Source: Anaerolineales bacterium
GTDB lineage: Bacteria; Chloroflexota; Anaerolineae; Anaerolineales; Villigracilaceae
Assembly (NCBI GenBank): GCA_014860745.1
Contig: JACZJC010000027.1
Coordinates: forward strand, 1-64,000
DNA: 64,000 nt
Direction: 5' to 3'
In this document: positions 5,371 to 62,060 of the stretch, piece after piece
Layout of the letters: each line of letters starts with the position of its first letter
Numbering within the stretch: the stretch's first letter is position 1
Program-made: the position numbers and the translations under genes
Notes under the pieces: model-generated
The model's input: only the letters and a program-made list of their open reading frames with translations
The model's database searches: none
What the model was told of the DNA's origin: nothing

Positions 5371-5395
5371 CGACATCGCATTTCTAGTAGGTGGC

Positions 5396-5734
5396 GTGAC
5401 GGAACATTCTATGCAATTCTTAGCAGAAAATTGGAAATTAATTATCCTCATCAGTATTGCATTGACAATATTGATTGTTTTGCTTTGGCGAAATTATGAT
5501 ATTGACGAGATTACGCCCGCTCCGCCATTCGTCAAATTCAAGCGCAAATCTTCATCAACAAATAGCTCACAACAAGCCTCGATCAACATTAAAGGAAATA
5601 AAATGTGGGGCAAAAACAAAATAGGCGTTCGACGCGAGAGTACCAATGTCTCAGACAACAAAATGATAGGTAAGAATGAAATCGAGGTAGGCGCTAAGCC
5701 AGGTCGGAAATCGAAGGGGGTTAAGAAGAAATAA
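5396..5734 (+). CDS. Small membrane protein with two copies of a GKN motif
   Basis: Product of 112 residues, not recognised as a known family. One membrane segment (about residues 14-31, KLIILISIALTILIVLLW) is followed by a basic, Ser-rich tail. The tail holds two 16-residue repeats with a 20-residue period: INIKGNKMWGKNKIGV (63-78) and TNVSDNKMIGKNEIEV (83-98). A third copy lies inside the neighbouring ATPase (IDIKSNLMLGKNQIDA). Start is GTG 5396; no strong ribosome site is seen and an ATG at 5411 is an alternative. The stop overlaps the ATPase start by one base (TAATG), so the two are translationally coupled. The alternating pattern resembles amyloid-type signalling motifs shared between STAND proteins and their effectors; this is an inference. 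Confidence 0.6.
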   Translation: MTEHSMQFLAENWKLIILISIALTILIVLLWRNYDIDEITPAPPFVKFKRKSSSTNSSQQASINIKGNKMWGKNKIGVRRESTNVSDNKMIGKNEIEVGAKPGRKSKGVKKK

Positions 5735-53569: not shown

Positions 53570-53598
53570 AATATTTATGATAATTATCTAATATATTG
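53570..53598. promoter_or_regulatory. 29-base near-palindromic element upstream of sufR
   Basis: Contains the perfect core GATAATTATC; 22 of 28 positions are symmetric. Matches 50322-50350 at 25 of 29 positions and overlaps the -35 of the sufR promoter. Confidence 0.7.
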
Positions 53599-53631
53599 AC
53601 AAGAACATATTGGGCAGGTATACTGCCCAAT
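53596..53631 (+). promoter_or_regulatory. sufR promoter with operator palindrome
   Basis: TTGACA (53596), 17-base spacer, TATACT (53619). The perfect inverted repeat ATTGGGCAG-N5-CTGCCCAAT (53609-53631) covers the -10 and ends at the ATG. The start point would be at or within a base or two of the ATG, so the mRNA is predicted leaderless. Confidence 0.8.
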
Positions 53632-54258
53632 ATGAAATCTACGCGCGACAAAATATTACAGACCTTATTGCGAAAGCCCCGCTCCACCATTAACGATCTC
53701 GCTGAAGCAGTCGGTATTAATCCTATTTCGGTACGCCACCATCTAACCAACCTCCAAATGGAGGGGCTTGTGGAAGGACAGGAGGAGCGTCACGGAGTGG
53801 GACGTCCGCGCCTCGTGTATGTGCTCACCGATGAGGGAATGGAGCATTTCCCAACACGGTACATGAAATTGACTACACGCCTGCTTTCTCAAATGAAAGA
53901 GACCATGCCTGGGCCGGTTGTCGCAAAGTTGTTTAATCAAATTGCTGAAGACCTTGCCAGTGAATATACCGAAGATATGAAAAACTTGGGAATGGAAGAC
54001 CGCCTGGACTTCGTCAAGGATATGCTGGCGCAGGAAGGCTTTACCGTGGAATGGGAAAAGAAAGACGGGCAATATCAGATCCACGAAATATCCTGCCCGT
54101 ATTACCAAATTGGAATTGCCCATCCTGAAGTTTGCACTGTGGACCAGACCCTGATCTCAAAGATGCTCGCCTTGCCAGCAAACAAAGTCCAGTGTATTTT
54201 GGACGGCGACTCGCATTGCACCTACGTTGTCCAGCCTGCGGAAGTCAAGAGCAAGTAA
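53632..54258 (+). CDS. sufR: SufR-like transcriptional regulator
   Basis: 208 residues. N-terminal winged helix (about 1-70: STINDLAEAVGINPISVRHHLTNLQMEGLV) and a C-terminal domain with Cys at 155, 168, 188 and 196 (first two spaced Cys-X12-Cys). This fits the SufR/ArsR-DeoR type repressor that carries an Fe-S cluster. ATG 53632 is preferred over an in-frame TTG at 53596, which coincides with the -35 hexamer. A suf operon 3 kb away shares an element with its promoter, and a sufT gene follows by 24 bases. The Cys spacing is not identical to the cyanobacterial SufR, so the cluster is inferred. Confidence 0.8.
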   Translation: MKSTRDKILQTLLRKPRSTINDLAEAVGINPISVRHHLTNLQMEGLVEGQEERHGVGRPRLVYVLTDEGMEHFPTRYMKLTTRLLSQMKETMPGPVVAKLFNQIAEDLASEYTEDMKNLGMEDRLDFVKDMLAQEGFTVEWEKKDGQYQIHEISCPYYQIGIAHPEVCTVDQTLISKMLALPANKVQCILDGDSHCTYVVQPAEVKSK

Positions 54259-54282
54259 CTATCAATAAAAAATAGAGGAACT

Positions 54283-54627
54283 ATGAGCGAAGAAATCAAG
54301 GAAATCCAGTGGACCATCCATACTACCCACCCCGAGACAGTACAAAAGGCACGGGCGAGTTTATCCGAGGTGATCGACCCGGAAATTGGCATGAGTATCA
54401 TCCAGTTGGGACTTGTGCGCGACATTGAAATTGACAACAATATTGCCCGTCTAAAAATGATCCTCACAACACCTTTTTGCCCTTATGGCCCCGCCATGAT
54501 CGAAATGACCAAGGCAAAAGCCACGGAGGGATTGAACATGCCTGTTACTATCGAAATGGGCATGGAAATGTGGGATTTTTCCATGATGGAAGACCCATCC
54601 GCGCTCGATTGGGGAATGTACGCATAG
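54283..54627 (+). CDS. sufT: SufT / MIP18-type (DUF59) Fe-S assembly protein
   Basis: 114 residues. DUF59 domain: SEVIDPEIGMSIIQLGLVRDIEID, then LTTPFCPYGPAMIEMTKAKA with the conserved Cys. Members help mature Fe-S proteins. It follows sufR and is probably co-transcribed with it. A hairpin and terminator lie downstream. Confidence 0.9.
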   Translation: MSEEIKEIQWTIHTTHPETVQKARASLSEVIDPEIGMSIIQLGLVRDIEIDNNIARLKMILTTPFCPYGPAMIEMTKAKATEGLNMPVTIEMGMEMWDFSMMEDPSALDWGMYA

Positions 54628-54802: not shown

Positions 54803-55414
54803 TCAAACCCCTTTTTTCCAATGCATGGCATGCGGCTGTTCGCCTTCTGCAAAACCCGAAATGATGATCAGAGCATTGGTGACATTGTTGCCCGGGTTGC
54901 GCCAGCGATGACTTAATTTTGATGCGAATAATAGACTGTCACCCGCATCCAGATGGAAAAGGTCCTTTTCCACAAAATAATCCAGCTGGCCGCGCAGGCA
55001 AAATACGAACTCGTGTCCGGAATGCACCATGCCGTGCGGACCGCAAGACGCGCCGCTTTCCAACGTCAGCATAAATGGCTCTACCCGGCCCACAAACTGT
55101 TCCCCGCCTAATGCCTCGAATACTCCCCGCGTAAATGGCATGCGGGTTCGTTCGTCATGTTTCAAATATACAATTTGCTTTTTTTCGGTTTCCACGCCGA
55201 AAAAGGCGGTGATCGATACCCCAAGCGCATCGGCAAGCTTATAAAGTGTACTCACGGATGGCGAAGTCTTACTCCTTTCGATCATCGAAAGCGCATTTGC
55301 AGATAATCCGCTCTTGGTGGCGAGTGTCCGCATGGATATTCCCCTCGCCTCGCGCAGTTCACGCAACCGCGACGCCACATCCACGGATAGTGCCTCCCTT
55401 TGAAACGATTCCAT
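54803..55414 (-). CDS. XRE-family regulator with cupin domain
   Basis: 203 residues. Helix-turn-helix (about 12-70: LRELREARGISMRTLATKSGLSANALSMIERSKTSPSVSTLYKLADALG) and a C-terminal cupin (about 100-195: HSGHEFVFCLRGQLDYFVEKDLFHLDAGDSLLF). Cupin-type XRE regulators often respond to amino acid-like or sulfur compounds. AGGAGG precedes ATG 55414; the upstream extension to 55486 is rejected. Divergent from the arsR-cytochrome operon, so it may control it. Confidence 0.88.
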   Translation of the reverse strand: MESFQREALSVDVASRLRELREARGISMRTLATKSGLSANALSMIERSKTSPSVSTLYKLADALGVSITAFFGVETEKKQIVYLKHDERTRMPFTRGVFEALGGEQFVGRVEPFMLTLESGASCGPHGMVHSGHEFVFCLRGQLDYFVEKDLFHLDAGDSLLFASKLSHRWRNPGNNVTNALIIISGFAEGEQPHAMHWKKGV

Positions 55415-55576
55415 TTGAACCTCCTGCCTGCAAGAATTTTCCGAAAAATCCTGTAATTCCAACCAAACCTCTCGAATTATACCCAACTTTTATGTGACAT
55501 TAGACAAAACTTAATATGACACATTCCACTATTGTACATTATGTCACAATATTATGATGAGGGTGCAAACATTCGT

Positions 55577-55600: not shown

Positions 55601-55948
55601 ATGGTCACACCCAACCTAAAACAGGAAATCACCCAGCTTGAAGCCAATTTTTGTGCTGCGCTTTCAGACCCCAACCGCCTTCTCATTTTATATGCCCTCA
55701 GCGAAGGCGCTCGCAATGTGACCGAACTGGCGAATGAACTCGGGCTGAACCAGCCAACTACGTCGCGCCATCTCAAAGTCCTGAGAGAGCGAGGGCTGGT
55801 CTACACCGTGCGGACCGGCACAATCATCACCTATCACCTTTCCGATCCAAGACTCATTCAGGCACTTGATTTACTGCGAAATGCAATGCGAGACAGACTC
55901 GCTCACCAGGCAAACCTGGTCAACGAAGTATCACAGGAGAATGTATGA
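55601..55948 (+). CDS. ArsR-family transcriptional regulator
   Basis: 115 residues (138 if the ATG at 55532 is used). Winged helix: NFCAALSDPNRLLILYALSEGARNVTELANELGLNQPTTSRHLKVLRERGLV. The Cys in NFCAALSDPNR is the only one, so this is not a classical two-Cys metal sensor. ATG 55601 leaves a palindrome ten bases upstream and is preferred. The stop overlaps the octaheme cytochrome start by ATGA, so it heads that operon. Sulfur-responsive ArsR proteins of similar size (SqrR/BigR) use two Cys, so the signal is unclear. Confidence 0.82.
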   Translation: MVTPNLKQEITQLEANFCAALSDPNRLLILYALSEGARNVTELANELGLNQPTTSRHLKVLRERGLVYTVRTGTIITYHLSDPRLIQALDLLRNAMRDRLAHQANLVNEVSQENV

Positions 55949-57378
55949 AAAAACGCTTCCCTTTCTGGACCGTTGGACTGCTCGGCATCCTTTTGCTGAT
56001 TCTCGTCCCGGTCCTTTACTTCCTCCCCCGCCCCCAATCGAAAACGAACCCAGCGGATTTCATCCCCGAAAAACCCGTACATGTCGATCACAAAGACATC
56101 ATCAATGGCGAATTTAAAACGGGCCCGGATGTCACGCGTGCCTGTCTCGAATGCCATGAAGACGCGGCAGCGCAAGTGATGAAGACCACGCACTGGACTT
56201 GGGAATCGAAGGAATTCGACGTCCCCTGGCGCGACGAACCCGTCACCATCGGGAAAGCCAACCAGATCAACAACTTTTGCATCAGTGCGCAAGGCAACCA
56301 GAAAAAATGCATGTCCTGCCATGCAGGTTATGGGTGGGAGGAAAATAAGGCCTACGACTATACCAAAGCTGAAAACGTGGACTGCCTTGCATGCCATGCC
56401 GATATGGGTACTTACGGCAAAGGGAACTATGGCAATCCTGCCGAAGGTGTGGACCTGCTCGCCTCAGCCCAGAGTGTTCGAGCGCCCAACCGTGAGAACT
56501 GCGGCAAGTGCCACTTTGACGGCGGCGGCGGCAATGGTGTAAAACATGGCGATCTCGATGAGGGCTTGTACTTCCCGCAGGAAAACCTCGATATTCATAT
56601 GGGCGGCGAAAAAAACATGCAATGCATCGACTGTCACTGGACAAAAGACCACCAGGTTTTAGGCCGCATGCTGGCTGACAACTACACCATTGACCCCAAA
56701 GAACAGGTTTCATGCGAACAATGCCACATCGACCAGCAACACAAGGATGAGCGCGTCAATACGCACCTCTCCGCGGTCGCCTGCCAGACCTGCCATGTCC
56801 CCGCTCTCGCGCTCGAAGACCCGACCAAGGTTTATTGGGACTGGTCACAAGCGGGTCAGGAAGGACGCGAAGACGATCACTTCACCTACCTGAAGATAAA
56901 AGGTGAATTCGTCTACGAGAAGAACTTCGCGCCTACCTATCTCTGGTTCAACGGCAACAATGAATATCGCTACATTCTCGGCGACCCGCTCGGCGAGGAT
57001 GGGATCACATACATCAACAAACCTGCTGGCAGCATGGAAGATAAAACCGCAAAAATATTCCCCTTCAAATTGCACGTTGCGAAACAGCCATACGATGTAG
57101 GAAATAATTACCTGCTTGCGCCCATTACAGCAGGCGAGGACGGGTACTGGACGATCTTCAACTGGGACACTGCTTTTGAATTGGCACAAACGCGCATGGG
57201 TTTGGCCTATAGCGGTCAATACGACTTCACCACCACTTATATGTACTGGCCCACCACTCACATGGTACAGCCCGCCGATAACGCCTTGCAATGCGACTCC
57301 TGTCATGGAGAAAATGGCCGCATGGATTGGGAAGCTCTTGGTTATCCCGGCGACCCGATCAAATGGGGCGGGAGATAA
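55945..57378 (+). CDS. Octaheme c-type cytochrome, OTR-like
   Basis: 477 residues with an N-terminal membrane anchor (about 8-26), then eight CXXCH haem sites: C67, C122, C147, C186, C227, C257, C280 and the last near C453 (QCDSCHGENG). The KCMSCHAGYGWEENKAYDY stretch after the second site is the hallmark of octaheme tetrathionate reductase-like proteins. Those reduce tetrathionate, nitrite or hydroxylamine in vitro. The protein faces outward. It overlaps arsR and precedes a cytochrome-membrane fusion by five bases. AGGAG supports the ATG. Physiological substrate unknown; gene context suggests a sulfur compound. Confidence 0.88.
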   Translation: MKKRFPFWTVGLLGILLLILVPVLYFLPRPQSKTNPADFIPEKPVHVDHKDIINGEFKTGPDVTRACLECHEDAAAQVMKTTHWTWESKEFDVPWRDEPVTIGKANQINNFCISAQGNQKKCMSCHAGYGWEENKAYDYTKAENVDCLACHADMGTYGKGNYGNPAEGVDLLASAQSVRAPNRENCGKCHFDGGGGNGVKHGDLDEGLYFPQENLDIHMGGEKNMQCIDCHWTKDHQVLGRMLADNYTIDPKEQVSCEQCHIDQQHKDERVNTHLSAVACQTCHVPALALEDPTKVYWDWSQAGQEGREDDHFTYLKIKGEFVYEKNFAPTYLWFNGNNEYRYILGDPLGEDGITYINKPAGSMEDKTAKIFPFKLHVAKQPYDVGNNYLLAPITAGEDGYWTIFNWDTAFELAQTRMGLAYSGQYDFTTTYMYWPTTHMVQPADNALQCDSCHGENGRMDWEALGYPGDPIKWGGR

Positions 57379-57383
57379 AAATC

Positions 57384-60077
57384 ATGAAACGATACTCTTT
57401 TTTCCTCTTGCTCGGATTGTTCATACTGACACTTGCCATCGGATTTGGATCGGTTCTTGCCTCGCCTGTGCCTGCTCCTGATCAACAAATATCCGTTCTT
57501 CACCCTAACTTTATCCTGCTCGATGCAGACGGCGTGAATGTGCTGGATAGCGGCAAGTCCGTCTCCACCATGCGAACTTGCGGTCAATGCCATAACACCG
57601 AGTTCATCGCCTCGCATGCCTTTCATTCTGATCTTGGTCTTTCTGATTACGAAATTTCCACCGAATCGTGGAATTCGAGCCGCGGCCTCTTTGGTGAATG
57701 GGAACCGCTCACCTATCGGTTCCTCACCCAGAATGGCGATGAGCGCCTCGATTTGAGCACTGCCGAATGGCTCATGCTCTACGGTGACCGGGTTGTCGGC
57801 GGCGGACCTGCCACCACTTCCCGCGATGGCAAGGCGCTCACCGACCTGCCGATGAGCAGGAATAATCCCGAAACAGCTCTCCTTAACGAAGACGGTTCAG
57901 CATCCATTTGGGACTGGAACAAATCAGGCACAATGGAAATGAACTGCTTCCTCTGCCATCTCGAAACACCAAATACAAGAGCGCGGTATGAAGCGATTCG
58001 CGCCGGCCAATTTGGCAGCGCAAATACAGCCACATTGCTGGGTTTAAATATTGTTTCCAAATCCAGTGAAGGGTGGGTTTGGAATACATCGGCCTTCAAT
58101 GAGAATGACGAGCTTAAAAGCGAGATCATTGGAATTCAAGACCCTACCAACGCCAACTGCGCAACCTGCCACGGTGAAGTCCATTCCGATTCAGAGCAGG
58201 CGCTCACCGTCAATGCTTGCGATTTGAATTACCCCCAGACCGCCACAACCGGCCAGGTAATTGCCGCGCAAAAGATCAACGAATCCGGCATAAATCTTAG
58301 CGATAAACAAACGCTAAATCGATCGTGGGATGTCCATGCCGAGCGGCAACTTCAATGCACCGACTGTCACTTCTCGCCCAATAATCCTGCGCACGCACTC
58401 GAAATCCAGGGATCGAGTCCAAGCCATCTGCTGTACGATCCGCGCAAATTGAATATCAACGAGTATCTTGAGCGTCCCGACCATAACTTCGCACGCGGCG
58501 CCAGCGCGCAATTTAATGTAGCCCCCGAATTCAAAAGCACCATGCGGCGCTGCGAATCCTGTCACGACACCAATAAATCACATGCGGGCTGGCTCCCCTA
58601 TAACGATCGTCACATGCAGGTTATTGCCTGCGAGACCTGTCACATCCCTAAAATGTTTGCGCCAGCCTATTCCACCATGGATTGGACGGTTTTACAACTC
58701 GATGGATCCGCCCGTACGGAATGCCGCGGCATCGAAGGTGATAACACCACCACTGACCTCGTAACTGGCTTCCAACCTGTGCTGATGCAACGCACCGACA
58801 TCGTGGATGGCAAAACCCTGCTTGCTCCATACAATCTGATCACGTCATTCTTCTGGGTGTACGAAGATGGATTTGGAAACCTGCGGCCGATTCGACATGC
58901 CGACCTGGAGGCTGTTTACCTCGACAACGATGGCTACGCCGCTGATATCCTTTCCGCCTTCGATACAGACAGCAACGGGAAGCTCACCGAAAATGAACTA
59001 GTGCTCGACACCGCTGCCAAGCAGGATCTCATTGCAGGAAAATTTAAAGCCCTTGGTTTGAAAAATGTCCGCATCTACGGACAGGTGCAGCCCTATTCGA
59101 TCAACCACAACGTGGTGGACAACAAATACGCCACACGCGATTGCGAGGTCTGCCATAACTCCGAGTCGCGGGTCACAACCCCCCTCCTCTTATCCGACTC
59201 TGCCCCCCTGGGAATAACGCCTGAATTTGTGGCAGGCGTCAATGTGACCGCAACGGGAGGCATAATCAACAAGGATGGTTCGCTATACTACAATCCCGTC
59301 AATGAAAATGATAAAACCTACATCTTTGGGCATAACCGTAACGCATGGATTGACTGGTTTGGAGCTCTGCTATTCCTCGGCACGATCGTAGGCGTGGCCG
59401 GACACGGCACGGTGAGATACATAACAGCACGCAGGCAGCGCGGGCGTGCTGTCGAAACAAAATCCGTTTATATGTACGAAGCCTATGAACGCTTCTGGCA
59501 TTGGCTGCAAACCATTGCCATCGTCGTACTGCTCTTAACGGGACTCGTCATACATCGCCCCGACCTGTTCAGCGCCTTCTCCTTCCGCAATATTGTCGTC
59601 ATCCACAATGTGCTGGCAGCCCTGCTCGCTATCAACGCCCTGATCTCGATCCTTTGGCACGTTATCAGCGGTGAGATCCAACAGTACATTCCGCATCCCT
59701 ACGGCTTCATAGACCAGATGATCGCCCAGGCCAAATATTACATTCAAGGTATCTTCAATCACCAACCTCACCCGTTCCATAAATCCAAGGAACGCAAGTT
59801 CAATCCCCTGCAAATGGTTACTTACATTGGTCTGCTGGGTGTCCTGCTTCCCTTACAGGGAATCACCGGCATGATGATGTGGCTGGTTCAAAAGGTTCCC
59901 TCCATTCAGACCTGGTTTGGCGGGCTGCCCTTCCTTGCTCCAATGCATACGTTGATGGCCTGGCTATTCGCCTCCTTCATCGTTGGGCATGTTTATCTCA
60001 CCACAACCGGCGCAACCCCGCTCGAAGCCATCCGCGGTATGGTGACTGGTTATGAAGAAGTGGAAGTGCATGAATAA
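57384..60077 (+). CDS. Heptaheme cytochrome c fused to a cytochrome b membrane domain
   Basis: 897 residues. A signal anchor (about 5-25) is followed by seven CXXCH sites (TCGQCH, NCFLCH, NCATCH, QCTDCH, RCESCH, ACETCH, DCEVCH) over about 590 residues. A membrane segment near 650 leads into a cytochrome b561/formate dehydrogenase gamma-like domain (about 690-880: RFWHWLQTIAIVVLLLTGLVIH, IVVIHNVLAALLAINAL, and MHTLMAWLFASFIVGHVYL) with His for haem b. This can connect the quinone pool to the outside haem chain. Its multiheme part resembles the preceding octaheme protein. ATG 57384 lies six bases after that gene's stop; an extension to 57291 overlaps it and is rejected. Confidence 0.85.
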   Translation: MKRYSFFLLLGLFILTLAIGFGSVLASPVPAPDQQISVLHPNFILLDADGVNVLDSGKSVSTMRTCGQCHNTEFIASHAFHSDLGLSDYEISTESWNSSRGLFGEWEPLTYRFLTQNGDERLDLSTAEWLMLYGDRVVGGGPATTSRDGKALTDLPMSRNNPETALLNEDGSASIWDWNKSGTMEMNCFLCHLETPNTRARYEAIRAGQFGSANTATLLGLNIVSKSSEGWVWNTSAFNENDELKSEIIGIQDPTNANCATCHGEVHSDSEQALTVNACDLNYPQTATTGQVIAAQKINESGINLSDKQTLNRSWDVHAERQLQCTDCHFSPNNPAHALEIQGSSPSHLLYDPRKLNINEYLERPDHNFARGASAQFNVAPEFKSTMRRCESCHDTNKSHAGWLPYNDRHMQVIACETCHIPKMFAPAYSTMDWTVLQLDGSARTECRGIEGDNTTTDLVTGFQPVLMQRTDIVDGKTLLAPYNLITSFFWVYEDGFGNLRPIRHADLEAVYLDNDGYAADILSAFDTDSNGKLTENELVLDTAAKQDLIAGKFKALGLKNVRIYGQVQPYSINHNVVDNKYATRDCEVCHNSESRVTTPLLLSDSAPLGITPEFVAGVNVTATGGIINKDGSLYYNPVNENDKTYIFGHNRNAWIDWFGALLFLGTIVGVAGHGTVRYITARRQRGRAVETKSVYMYEAYERFWHWLQTIAIVVLLLTGLVIHRPDLFSAFSFRNIVVIHNVLAALLAINALISILWHVISGEIQQYIPHPYGFIDQMIAQAKYYIQGIFNHQPHPFHKSKERKFNPLQMVTYIGLLGVLLPLQGITGMMMWLVQKVPSIQTWFGGLPFLAPMHTLMAWLFASFIVGHVYLTTTGATPLEAIRGMVTGYEEVEVHE

Positions 60078-60148
60078 AAGGATGAAGGATAAAAGATGAA
60101 GGATGAAACTGGTCAGGTGCTTTTAGCAATGTCACGCCGACCGATTTC

Positions 60149-60182
60149 AACACCTTTGTGCCCTTTGTGTCCTTCGTGTTTA
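60149..60182 (+). repeat. CACAAAGG-type repeat fragment
   Basis: AACACCTTTGTGCCCTTTGTG then TCCTTCGTGTTTA; same family as 23798-23877 and again just before a ribosome site. Confidence 0.7.
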
Positions 60183-60199
60183 GAAAAGGAGTATCTCAA

Positions 60200-60745
60200 A
60201 TGACTGCTCAAGCAAAAAAATCAATTTTCAACCGTCCAGAAAAACCCTATGTGCATCCGTACTTCGGCGGCGTTGTGCTCGGAATTGTCCTGTTCCTTGC
60301 TTTTTTCCTCACAGGCAATGGACTCGGCTCCTCCGGCGCAACCAGCCGCATTGATGCTGCGATTGTGGATGCGGTCTCCCCCTCTCATGTGGACAACAAT
60401 CCTTATTTATTGAAAATGGCAGGCGGAGATAAAAACCCGCTGGATGATTGGATCGTGCCGGTCTTCTTTGGCGCTCTCATCGGTGGCTTTACATCGGGTT
60501 TGTTCAATGGTCGGTTGAAATTCATAACCACCAAAGGACCCAATATTTCCAATCGTACCCGCTGGTTGATGGCTTTCCTTGGCGGCGTGCTTTTCCTGTA
60601 TGGAGCGCGAATGGCGCGTGGATGCACATCCGGCCAGGCTCTTTCCGGCGGCGCCACTCTCTCCGCCGGCTCATGGCTTGTTATGTTCGCCATATTCGGC
60701 GGTGCGTACGGACTTGCATACTTTGTACGGAAGTTGTGGAATTAG
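60200..60745 (+). CDS. YeeE/YedE-type sulfur transporter, short subunit
   Basis: 181 residues with about four membrane segments. The motif GARMARGCTSGQALSGGATLSAGSW, with a conserved Cys, is the YeeE/YedE signature; in TsuA this family moves thiosulfate-type sulfur. ATG 60200 has AAGGAG seven bases before it; the ORF extension to 60158 lies in a repeat. It is followed by a second YeeE-type gene after 13 bases, and both together could form the full transporter. Confidence 0.9.
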   Translation: MTAQAKKSIFNRPEKPYVHPYFGGVVLGIVLFLAFFLTGNGLGSSGATSRIDAAIVDAVSPSHVDNNPYLLKMAGGDKNPLDDWIVPVFFGALIGGFTSGLFNGRLKFITTKGPNISNRTRWLMAFLGGVLFLYGARMARGCTSGQALSGGATLSAGSWLVMFAIFGGAYGLAYFVRKLWN

Positions 60746-60758
60746 AAGGAGCAATAGA

Positions 60759-62060
60759 ATGAACTTTCCCCTCCCTGAATTCATCGTAGTGAGCGCAAGC
60801 AATCCGTGGACCTATATTCTCTTTGGTGTGATCGGTTTTGCATTCGGCTACGTACTCGAAATGTCGGGCTTTGGCGATTCGCGCAAACTGGCCGCGCAGT
60901 TCTACTTCACCGAATTAACCGTGCTCAAGGTCATGTTCACCGCCATCGTTGTGGCGATGGTATTAACCTTCGGCGCAGTCGGGCTTGGGCTTCTTGATTT
61001 CAGCCAGGTCTGGGTCAACCCGACCTATCTTTGGTCAGGCATCCTCGGTGGTCTGATCATGGGCGTCGGTTTCATCGTCGGCGGCTTCTGCCCAACTACC
61101 TCACTCGCATCCGCTTCGACCGGCAAGATCGACGGTATGTTCTTCATGCTTGGCGGTTTCGTCGGCGCCGCGATCTTTGCTGAAACCGAAAAATTCTTCA
61201 CCCACTGGTACAACAATGCCGGATATTACGGACGGCTGACCCTCGACCAGGTCTTCAACCTGCCAATCGGGGTTGTCGTCCTGCTCGTTGTATTGATGGC
61301 GCTCTTTATGTTCTGGGGCGCGGAGCAACTCGAGCGCATCGTTGGCAAAAAAGATATGAGCAGGGAACCCAAACTCCGCATTGCTGGGGCAGGCGCTTTG
61401 GTCGTTCTCGCATTCGCAGTCGTTTTCATCGGTTCGCCTTCAATCGAAGAAAAATACAACAACCTGACTTTCACGCGCACTGAAACCATTCAACTCGAAG
61501 GTCAGGAGCCCATCGTCAACACGATCACCTACTCTGCCGACCAAATGCTTGCGAACCGGCTGGTCTTTGTCACTCCTGCTGAAGCGTTCAAAGCAAAATA
61601 CAATCAGGGTATGAAACCCATTTATCTCGATGTACGCGCCGAAGCGGACTACAATCTTTACCATATAGAAAATGCAGTTAATGTCCCACTCGACCGCATC
61701 CTCGAAATTGTACCTGTCCTCTTGAGCGAACCGCCTGCGAACTCGGTTTTCATTTTGATAAGTAACGACGAAACCGCAGCTGTCAGCGCCTGGAAACTAT
61801 TGGTTGGCTCGAGCGTCCAAAATGTGTATATTCTGGAAGGCGGAGTAAACAACTGGATCGCCTTCTTCGGCAGTGACGACAAAACGCTTCGTCCCAACCC
61901 GACAGCTGGGGACGACCAATTAGGCTATCTCTTCCCTGCCGCATTGGGCAGCCGTTATGAGTCATGCTCACCGGACCCAGTCGAGTATGAAAAACTGGAA
62001 TTCGAGCAGAAGATCATATTGCAATTGAAACGAGACAAGAGCGGTGGAGGGTGCGGGTAA
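60759..62060 (+). CDS. YeeE/YedE-type transporter fused to a Cys-less rhodanese domain
   Basis: 433 residues. The first 225 have six or so membrane segments with GFIVGGFCPTTSLASASTGKIDG (Cys111), the YeeE motif. The last segment (206-225) has KKDMSREPK just before it, so by the positive-inside rule the rest is outside the cell membrane. Residues 270-375 form a rhodanese domain (IYLDVRAEADYNLYHIENAVNVPLD, VYILEGGVNNWIAF). The usual active-site Cys is replaced: ILISNDETAAVSAW has Ser335 there. The C-terminus is GGGCG (429-433), like the SoxY carrier end. AGAAGGAG precedes the ATG. Likely handles an extracytoplasmic sulfur species for the cytochromes upstream; inference. Confidence 0.88.
   Translation: MNFPLPEFIVVSASNPWTYILFGVIGFAFGYVLEMSGFGDSRKLAAQFYFTELTVLKVMFTAIVVAMVLTFGAVGLGLLDFSQVWVNPTYLWSGILGGLIMGVGFIVGGFCPTTSLASASTGKIDGMFFMLGGFVGAAIFAETEKFFTHWYNNAGYYGRLTLDQVFNLPIGVVVLLVVLMALFMFWGAEQLERIVGKKDMSREPKLRIAGAGALVVLAFAVVFIGSPSIEEKYNNLTFTRTETIQLEGQEPIVNTITYSADQMLANRLVFVTPAEAFKAKYNQGMKPIYLDVRAEADYNLYHIENAVNVPLDRILEIVPVLLSEPPANSVFILISNDETAAVSAWKLLVGSSVQNVYILEGGVNNWIAFFGSDDKTLRPNPTAGDDQLGYLFPAALGSRYESCSPDPVEYEKLEFEQKIILQLKRDKSGGGCG

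Follow-up and report, generated by a model that had tools for sequence, protein, structure and literature searches.

An octaheme cytochrome operon of Chloroflexota with a split YeeE-type channel and an invariant terminal cysteine

The window analyzed here, the first 64,000 nucleotides of contig JACZJC010000027.1 (assembly GCA_014860745.1) of an Anaerolineales bacterium from the phylum Chloroflexota, contains an operon of five co-directed genes that might encode a membrane-bound sulfur oxidoreductase, together with a sulfur channel and a tethered arm for its substrate. The products are an ArsR-type regulator, a cytochrome of the octaheme tetrathionate reductase (OTR) family, a heptaheme cytochrome fused to a cytochrome b domain (denoted HCB), and two proteins, YeeS and YeeR, that resemble the halves of a YeeE/TsuA-type channel. 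Judging from the context, a sulfur function, coupling to quinone and the functional unity of the operon are all highly probable. The best single explanation of the gene set, which we hold with about equal belief and doubt, is that the C-terminal tail of YeeR would serve as an arm carrying the substrate of OTR; we favor it because the tail is invariant, is missing from a related molybdoenzyme cassette, and has recurrent terminal-cysteine counterparts among the partners of OTR. The genes of the operon are as follows:

55601..55948, plus strand: ArsR/SmtB-type regulator, first gene of the operon (helix-turn-helix profile match)
55945..57378, plus strand: OTR octaheme cytochrome (TIGR04315, 8 CXXCH motifs, N-terminal hydrophobic segment)
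57384..60077, plus strand: HCB, heptaheme c domain, transmembrane helix and b561 (PhsC-like) domain in a single protein
60200..60745, plus strand: YeeS, C-terminal half of a YeeE/TsuA-type channel (PF04143 positions 165-309)
60759..62060, plus strand: YeeR, N-terminal channel half (PF04143 positions 11-178), Cys-less rhodanese fold and GGCG-COOH tail
62049..62057, plus strand: codons for the terminal Gly-Cys-Gly of YeeR, including Cys432 (sequence; conserved in 34 of 34 complete copies)

The open reading frames were re-checked, and the five genes, with their coordinates, single direction and spacers, are as given in a preliminary description of this stretch made from the sequence alone, which had interpreted the operon as a sulfur respiratory module; this interpretation is partly supported by the present analysis. 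The ArsR and OTR genes overlap by ATGA, 5 bases separate OTR from HCB, 122 bases HCB from YeeS, and 13 bases YeeS from YeeR. A scan for promoters and terminators yielded no excess over shuffled sequences, with no promoter-like match in the 122-base spacer, so that a single transcript for the operon is putative.

The preliminary description counted two YeeE/YedE transporters in this operon; instead, YeeS and YeeR match complementary halves of one. Both score above the gathering cutoff of PF04143 (Sulf_transp; 75 bits for YeeS and 61.5 bits for YeeR, cutoff 27), YeeS over the end of the profile and YeeR over its beginning. Likewise, a YeeR profile aligns with residues 6-208 of TsuA (E = 0.00046), and YeeS, weakly, with residues 244-325 (E = 0.15), which places Cys142 of YeeS, in the motif GCTSG, on Cys293 of TsuA. 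This channel cysteine is present in 35 of the 36 YeeS rows, the miss being a piece from locus L066, where YeeS is in two pieces, and the channel cysteine of YeeR (Cys111) in 34 of 35 rows, with a gap in L080, where the codon is TGA. The only cysteines of the window proteins are 111, 403 and 432 in YeeR and 142 in YeeS; an equivalent of the third cysteine of TsuA, one of three mentioned in the SoxT paper and taken here to be Cys22, is absent from both. The same split has been reported for PmpB and PmpA, with one cysteine apiece and a proposed heterodimer (in passages of PMC11582611). Most simply, YeeS and YeeR would be a single transporter.

In the N-terminal half, TGA takes the place of the channel cysteine codon in one OTR cassette (L080, site at about 5391-5404 on the minus strand) and in six molybdoenzyme cassettes (L192, L194, L195, L197, L202 and L203). 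The position of the codon suggests that it encodes selenocysteine, in line with a reactive thiol at this site. The splitting of the YeeR gene of L080 and of the genes for YeeR2, the corresponding half in the molybdoenzyme cassettes, is accordingly ascribed to TGA at this very codon and not to frame breaks. The review PMC13188914 has a table listing a GenBank-annotated TIGR04315 selenoprotein and a YeeE/YedE selenoprotein, and describes Tso as a three-selenoprotein operon.

Beyond the channel half, YeeR continues into a rhodanese domain (45.1 bits, cutoff 22.2). The YeeE-rhodanese fusion that the preliminary description had recognized thus stands as far as the domain is concerned, but the catalytic cysteine is gone: at the position that we assign to it by motif, Asn is found in all 34 YeeR rows that reach it. 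Also overlooked was the GGCG-COOH end, which is common to all the complete copies, including homologs of about 40% identity. The loop before the last helix of YeeR contains, on average, 5.7 Lys and Arg residues, compared with 0.1 in the N-terminal segment, so that, with the positive-inside rule as the sole guide, the rhodanese fold and the tail are probably located outside the membrane. An AlphaFold2 (AF2) model built from a four-sequence alignment is poor (predicted local distance difference test, pLDDT, 51.9). In SoxY, the sulfur is borne by a swinging arm that has a conserved cysteine (as described in a section of PMC11237559); the tail of YeeR resembles the end of SoxY in form only, without homology to SoxY.

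With 547.7 bits, the octaheme protein is above the cutoff of 375 of the OTR model TIGR04315, and it contains eight CXXCH motifs. Shewanella OTR (1sp3) is the sole PDB sequence that it matches at E <= 0.1 (E = 1.2e-129), with no chains of HAO, ONR or NrfA among the matches at this threshold; the assignment to OTR and not to a nitrogen-cycle enzyme, made previously, is upheld by these matches, the OTR tree containing no HAO or ONR. Residues C112 and K200, counted by hand along the alignment, correspond to C64 and K153 of 1sp3, of which K153 is presumably the ligand of heme 2 and C64 lies close to that heme. Both are conserved in 40 of the 40 OTR rows from the window and the cassette-search genomes, with a non-OTR octaheme comparator set aside, and in 81 of the 81 rows from the window and a set of 80 further loci. 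Tetrathionate reductase activity of the present protein is putative. For the family as such, PMC11237559 and PMC4911364 contain passages that cite the name and an in vitro activity, and the substrates named in such citations are tetrathionate, nitrite and hydroxylamine, the latter two reduced in vitro by Shewanella OTR. A second type of OTR occurs in Anaerolineales, fused to seven more hemes, for a total of 15, with genes for Tat Fe-S-type and NrfD-like proteins after it (L078:10248-12563, L093:4792-7050 and L102:5734-7947); related clusters with multi-rhodanese genes are found in L093, L080 and L105.

HCB starts with seven CXXCH motifs, followed by a transmembrane helix and the b561 domain. 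The C-terminal part matches PF01292 (Ni_hydr_CYTB) at 84.6 bits (cutoff 30.1), in agreement with the quinone-type b561 domain noted in the preliminary description, and the nearest NCBIfam model is PhsC, below its cutoff (135.7 versus 204). The AF2 model of HCB, again from a four-sequence alignment, is poor as well (pLDDT 39.4).

The gene set is conserved. In the genus of the window, 24 of 37 genomes, its own included, carry an OTR match of at least 77% identity, fragments counted, and in a phylum-wide sample 16 of 400 genomes score above the OTR cutoff, 14 of them in the family of the window and the other two in the same class outside that family. Each of the 16 encodes OTR, HCB, YeeS and YeeR in this order, with YeeR cut by the contig end in L086. 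Altogether, order and strand are kept in 35 of the 35 loci with enough sequence, the window counted; a script found 34, and L094, in which the OTR open frame begins before ArsR, was added by eye. The total excludes L063 and L098, which are truncated, as well as L092, L093, L099 and L100, which are not cassette loci. This recurrence shows that the four-gene order is not due to chance; lack of conservation, which the preliminary description had regarded as speaking against its proposal, was not seen. ArsR lies directly upstream in 33 of the 35 loci and at the other end in L078 and L082. The cassette OTRs, 22 rows in all, group together in a quickly built FastTree tree (support 99). The first OTR tree dropped 32 of the 80 rows by a motif filter, later work used all 80, with L092 out of the tree of partner types, and either tree holds only part of the Chloroflexota cassettes. 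One row, L118, comes from a metagenome-assembled genome labeled Bordetella parapertussis, probably wrongly; its OTR groups with an uncultured Burkholderiales row.

OTR neighborhoods elsewhere were surveyed in the best 80 of at least 566 confirmed loci (at least 591 stretches matched in the genome collection), an uneven sample for which similarity to a Chloroflexota OTR fusion determined the rank; its locus L101 coincides with the contig region of L078. A b561 cytochrome is encoded within five called genes of OTR in 52 of the 80 loci, with 50 of these genes directly after OTR; at least 900 bases downstream of OTR were available in 72 loci. Such proximity to cytochrome b is known (from parts of PMC4911364 and PMC7509429). 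In 18 of the 80 loci, OTR is preceded by a gene of a single family, and all 18 members end in Gly-Cys; the only member scanned, from L106, matches DUF302 at 36.4 bits (cutoff 23). In a literature search, 'octaheme' and 'DUF302' were not found together, and 'octaheme tetrathionate reductase' and 'YeeE' occur together in one paper.

Terminal cysteines were counted among the 943 complete genes of at least 70 amino acids that a simple custom gene caller identified in the 80 loci. Ends of the form [GAS]GC[GA]0-2 occur in 25 of the 408 genes within three genes of OTR and in none of the 535 farther away (Fisher 5e-10, a value inflated by kinship). These 25 genes encode 17 DUF302-type proteins, four small secreted proteins (L126, L135, L141 and L149; no Pfam family in the one scanned), three YeeR (L101, L102 and L109) and one SoxY (L133); a DUF302-type protein in L131 ends in DPGC, outside the pattern. 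With any end in C or C-X, the counts are 35 of 408 near OTR and 9 of 535 far from it. Terminal-cysteine neighbors of OTR are a tendency, not a rule.

In locus L133, from a Rhodospirillales metagenome-assembled genome, the OTR gene precedes those for b561, SoxY (with GAGGCG at its end), SoxZ, a triple-rhodanese protein, a small single-CXXCH protein and a YeeE/YedE protein. This locus contains the same set of functions as the Chloroflexota operon but as separate genes, YeeR in Chloroflexota being a fusion. In lucinid symbionts, otr adjoins soxY-S3 and soxZ (according to a passage in PMC11237559). The neighbors of OTR in L082 are a Pyr_redox_2 protein, SQR-like by eye, and DsrE2. Sulfur-type neighbors such as these, in OTR loci other than the window, agree with the link to sulfur made in the preliminary description. 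On the Anaerolineae contig of L109 (L109:2450-19494), genes for FAD/Fe-S proteins (Hdr-like by eye), DsrE-like proteins (by eye), a full-length YeeE, a LysR regulator and an OTR-b561 pair are lined up, with the complete five-gene cassette after them.

In the genus, the operon occupies a conserved chromosomal slot behind genes for a SufR-like regulator, a PF01883 protein, an XRE-cupin regulator and its own ArsR; in the window, the flank comprises:

53596..54627, plus strand: SufR-like regulator and PF01883 (SufT/MIP18-type) protein, flank of the slot
54803..55486, minus strand: divergent XRE-cupin regulator, which marks the slot and is only a candidate member of the module

Of 55 loci examined, 20 have XRE-cupin, ArsR and OTR side by side, and SufC- and SufB-type genes also flank the slot within the family; outside it, no SUF flank was observed at the cassette loci. 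ArsR has one invariant cysteine (residue 18) in 40 of 40 aligned ArsR-like rows. Two names for this regulator were rejected: BigR (NF040642; 50.2 bits versus 155), which we assume to sense through two cysteines, a pair absent from this protein with its single conserved cysteine, and TsoR (NF045707; 63.5 bits, cutoff 115). The region between XRE-cupin and ArsR (window:55480-55600) contains conserved AT-rich repeats common to the OTR slots and those with molybdoenzyme cassettes, which are possible operators. In the search for an ArsR operator, both kinds of slot were found to have an AT-rich, partly palindromic stretch near the start, but no single palindrome is kept in all loci.

Four genomes without an OTR match (G013, G023, G027 and G029) have in this slot, behind an ArsR of 72-83% identity, a molybdoenzyme (Mo) cassette that encodes a triheme cytochrome, YeeS, the YeeE half YeeR2, a molybdoenzyme, an Fe-S protein and an NrfD-like protein. 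The nearest relatives of the molybdoenzyme are PhsA (589.2 bits, below the cutoff of 694) and PDB 2vpw. YeeR2 lacks the rhodanese domain and the tail in all eight pieces that reach the C terminus, so the tail goes with OTR and not with the channel. This molybdoenzyme is found in 12 of 37 genus genomes: the four without OTR, G008 (contig cut), G006 (beside an OTR fusion, outside the slot) and six that also carry the OTR operon. Thus, strict mutual exclusion of the two cassettes is ruled out; in the five of these six genomes with readable flanks, the Mo cassette lies outside the slot. In two of them, G007 and G009, no YeeE pair was detected in the Mo cassette. PhsA/PsrA-like cassettes with a YeeE half-pair in the OTR slot are found in L191, L192, L194 and L195.

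The usual genes of sulfur metabolism, which the preliminary description had noted as lacking from the module, were also not found in this genome as far as SoxA, SoxY and the siroheme reductase family PF01077 are concerned. SoxA and SoxY were absent from all five Chloroflexota genomes searched, including this one, and PF01077 from the six cassette genomes searched, compared with two detections in five genomes without the cassette. Among ten proteobacterial genomes picked from tail-bearing OTR loci, SoxA scores above cutoff in nine and SoxY in nine. COX1 is present in 11 of the 11 genus genomes searched. The operon's five genes include no molybdopterin subunit. This genome encodes five PF00384 proteins, of which four were scanned: a formate dehydrogenase and NuoG are above cutoff, a QrcB-like and a PhsA-nearest protein are far below, and none passes the PhsA or TtrA cutoff. 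In the window, a minus-strand cluster (window:8068-12998) encodes a formate dehydrogenase alpha subunit (762.2 bits, cutoff 666.25) and its Fe-S and NuoF/NuoE-like partners; beside it are genes for a regulator and, by eye, a corrinoid-like protein. The fifth PF00384 protein (G000:C1:36218-37648, in this genome) has one in-frame TGA, as in several genus genomes, which fits the expectation for a selenocysteine formate dehydrogenase.

These observations can be combined in the following mechanism. YeeS and YeeR would form one channel of the YeeE/TsuA/PmpAB type, with the Cys-less rhodanese-fold domain and the flexible -Gly-Gly-Cys-Gly tail of YeeR on its putative outer face. The tail cysteine, similar to that of SoxY, may be loaded with a sulfur intermediate, for example, a Cys S-thiosulfonate or persulfide, and the arm would present this sulfur to the OTR active site, composed of the predicted Lys-ligated heme and the nearby invariant cysteine, where the S-S bond to the arm would be made or broken. 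Two electrons would be exchanged, by the presumed path, between the quinone pool and the c hemes of OTR and HCB via the b561 domain, the YeeS/YeeR channel would conduct sulfane sulfur or thiosulfate, and OTR, HCB, YeeS and YeeR may assemble into a complex. As for the direction, quinol-driven reduction is slightly favored over oxidation because a PhsA/PsrA-like cassette replaces the module in the same regulated slot; the SoxYZ, DsrE2, SQR-like and Hdr-like (both by eye) neighbors argue for oxidation.

Several points weigh against an arm that delivers substrate to OTR. The poor AF2 models of YeeR and HCB give its predicted reach and the topology no structural backing. In this genome, no SoxA was found that would process the loaded arm the Sox way. 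On the OTR tree, 50 rows with enough flank have no terminal-cysteine neighbor directly beside OTR, and only 6 changes of partner type are needed, so the signal in the Fisher test is carried by about 4 to 6 independent events. In addition, the terminal-cysteine pattern was picked after the first examples were known.

Of the competing explanations, one takes the same parts in an oxidative, Sox-like direction, with OTR conjugating thiosulfate or sulfide to the arm, electrons flowing to the quinone pool and sulfane sulfur being imported. It shares the arm mechanism with the preferred explanation, so that the two overlap, and we consider it a serious possibility, if somewhat short of an even chance. 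The SQR-like and DsrE2 neighbors in L082, the Hdr- and DsrE-like proteins and YeeE in L109, SoxYZ in L133, the high incidence of SoxA and SoxY in proteobacterial genomes with tail-bearing OTR loci, and COX1 throughout the genus genomes searched are compatible with oxidation. However, the alternative occupant of the slot is PhsA/PsrA-like, a family that is usually reductive, and the five Chloroflexota genomes searched yielded neither SoxA nor SoxY. Rather unlikely, in our view, is that OTR is a plain respiratory reductase of free tetrathionate, thiosulfate or polysulfide, fed with quinol through HCB, with YeeS/YeeR importing a product such as thiosulfate and the tail gating or scaffolding the channel but never carrying substrate. 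This would accord with the family name and the in vitro activity cited (in portions of PMC11237559 and PMC4911364), with the many OTR-b561 pairs that lack a terminal-cysteine neighbor in the 80-locus set, and with the PhsA/PsrA-like cassette in the slot of four relatives, but it leaves unexplained the invariant GGCG end, the lack of the tail in YeeR2 and the terminal-cysteine neighbors of OTR from four unrelated families.

An assimilatory role, in which the module frees reduced sulfur from outside oxidized or polymeric sulfur and imports it into cells that lack a siroheme sulfite reductase, beside SUF genes, appears improbable. The distribution of PF01077 and the SufC-, SufB-type, SufR-like and PF01883 genes flanking the slot in the family would suit it; yet eleven genomes are a small sample, 15 c hemes and a b561 domain would be costly for assimilation, and the SUF flank does not extend to the cassette loci seen outside the family. 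That OTR reduces nitrite or hydroxylamine, with the YeeE genes as unrelated passengers, is very hard to believe. Such reduction is cited for Shewanella OTR in vitro, and a sulfur disproportionator upregulates an octaheme protein, possibly OTR, when ammonifying (as stated in a portion of PMC12142623); nevertheless, the PDB search returned 1sp3 and none of the nitrogen-cycle chains, YeeS/YeeR follow OTR-HCB in every usable locus, and the neighbors of OTR are of the sulfur type.

A wider, tentative generalization of the tethered-arm explanation is that OTRs are, in general, not reductases of free tetrathionate but redox partners of sulfur carriers with C-terminal cysteine arms, the arm being fused to half a channel in Chloroflexota. 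If so, a Sox-like principle would operate on an octaheme core, and capture, the redox step and transport would be united in one machine in Chloroflexota, which would define extramembrane sulfur handling for a lineage in which neither Sox nor a siroheme reductase was found. Cys432 of YeeR is a concrete residue that bears on the role of OTR in vivo; the terminal-cysteine DUF302-type proteins, SoxYZ and YeeR are candidate partners.

In the Sox system, the SoxYZ carrier works with a heme enzyme. The carrier cysteine of SoxY is on a Gly-rich C-terminal arm (as described in part of PMC11237559), like the YeeR tail; here, in contrast, the putative arm is fused to a channel half, the octaheme cytochrome stands in place of SoxXA, and no SoxA or SoxY was found. 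The otr-soxY-S3-soxZ locus of lucinid symbionts likewise places an OTR gene beside a SoxY-type arm protein but belongs to Gammaproteobacteria, encodes separate SoxYZ and, in the relevant passages of PMC11237559, comes without mention of HCB or YeeE. Compared with PhsABC/PsrABC, the b561 part of HCB is nearest to PhsC, albeit below the PhsC cutoff, and four relatives have, in the same ArsR slot, a PhsA/PsrA-like cassette that includes a YeeE half-pair, whereas the OTR module has no molybdoenzyme. The preliminary description knew of no system with this gene set, which has to be qualified: an OTR beside a membrane cytochrome b, as in this operon, is already described in Thermosulfurimonas (TDIS_1882/1883) and Ignavibacteriae Ch128a, and the cytochrome beside OTR in the 80-locus set and the C-terminal domain of HCB are homologs. 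The heptaheme fusion, the split YeeE and the cysteine arm are not mentioned in the pertinent parts of PMC4911364 and PMC7509429, and this remainder appears to be new. Finally, as in PmpA/PmpB, SoxT and TsuA, two half-size proteins match the halves of TsuA with one conserved cysteine each; compared with PmpAB and TsuA, YeeR has an additional helix, a Cys-less rhodanese fold and the GGCG tail.

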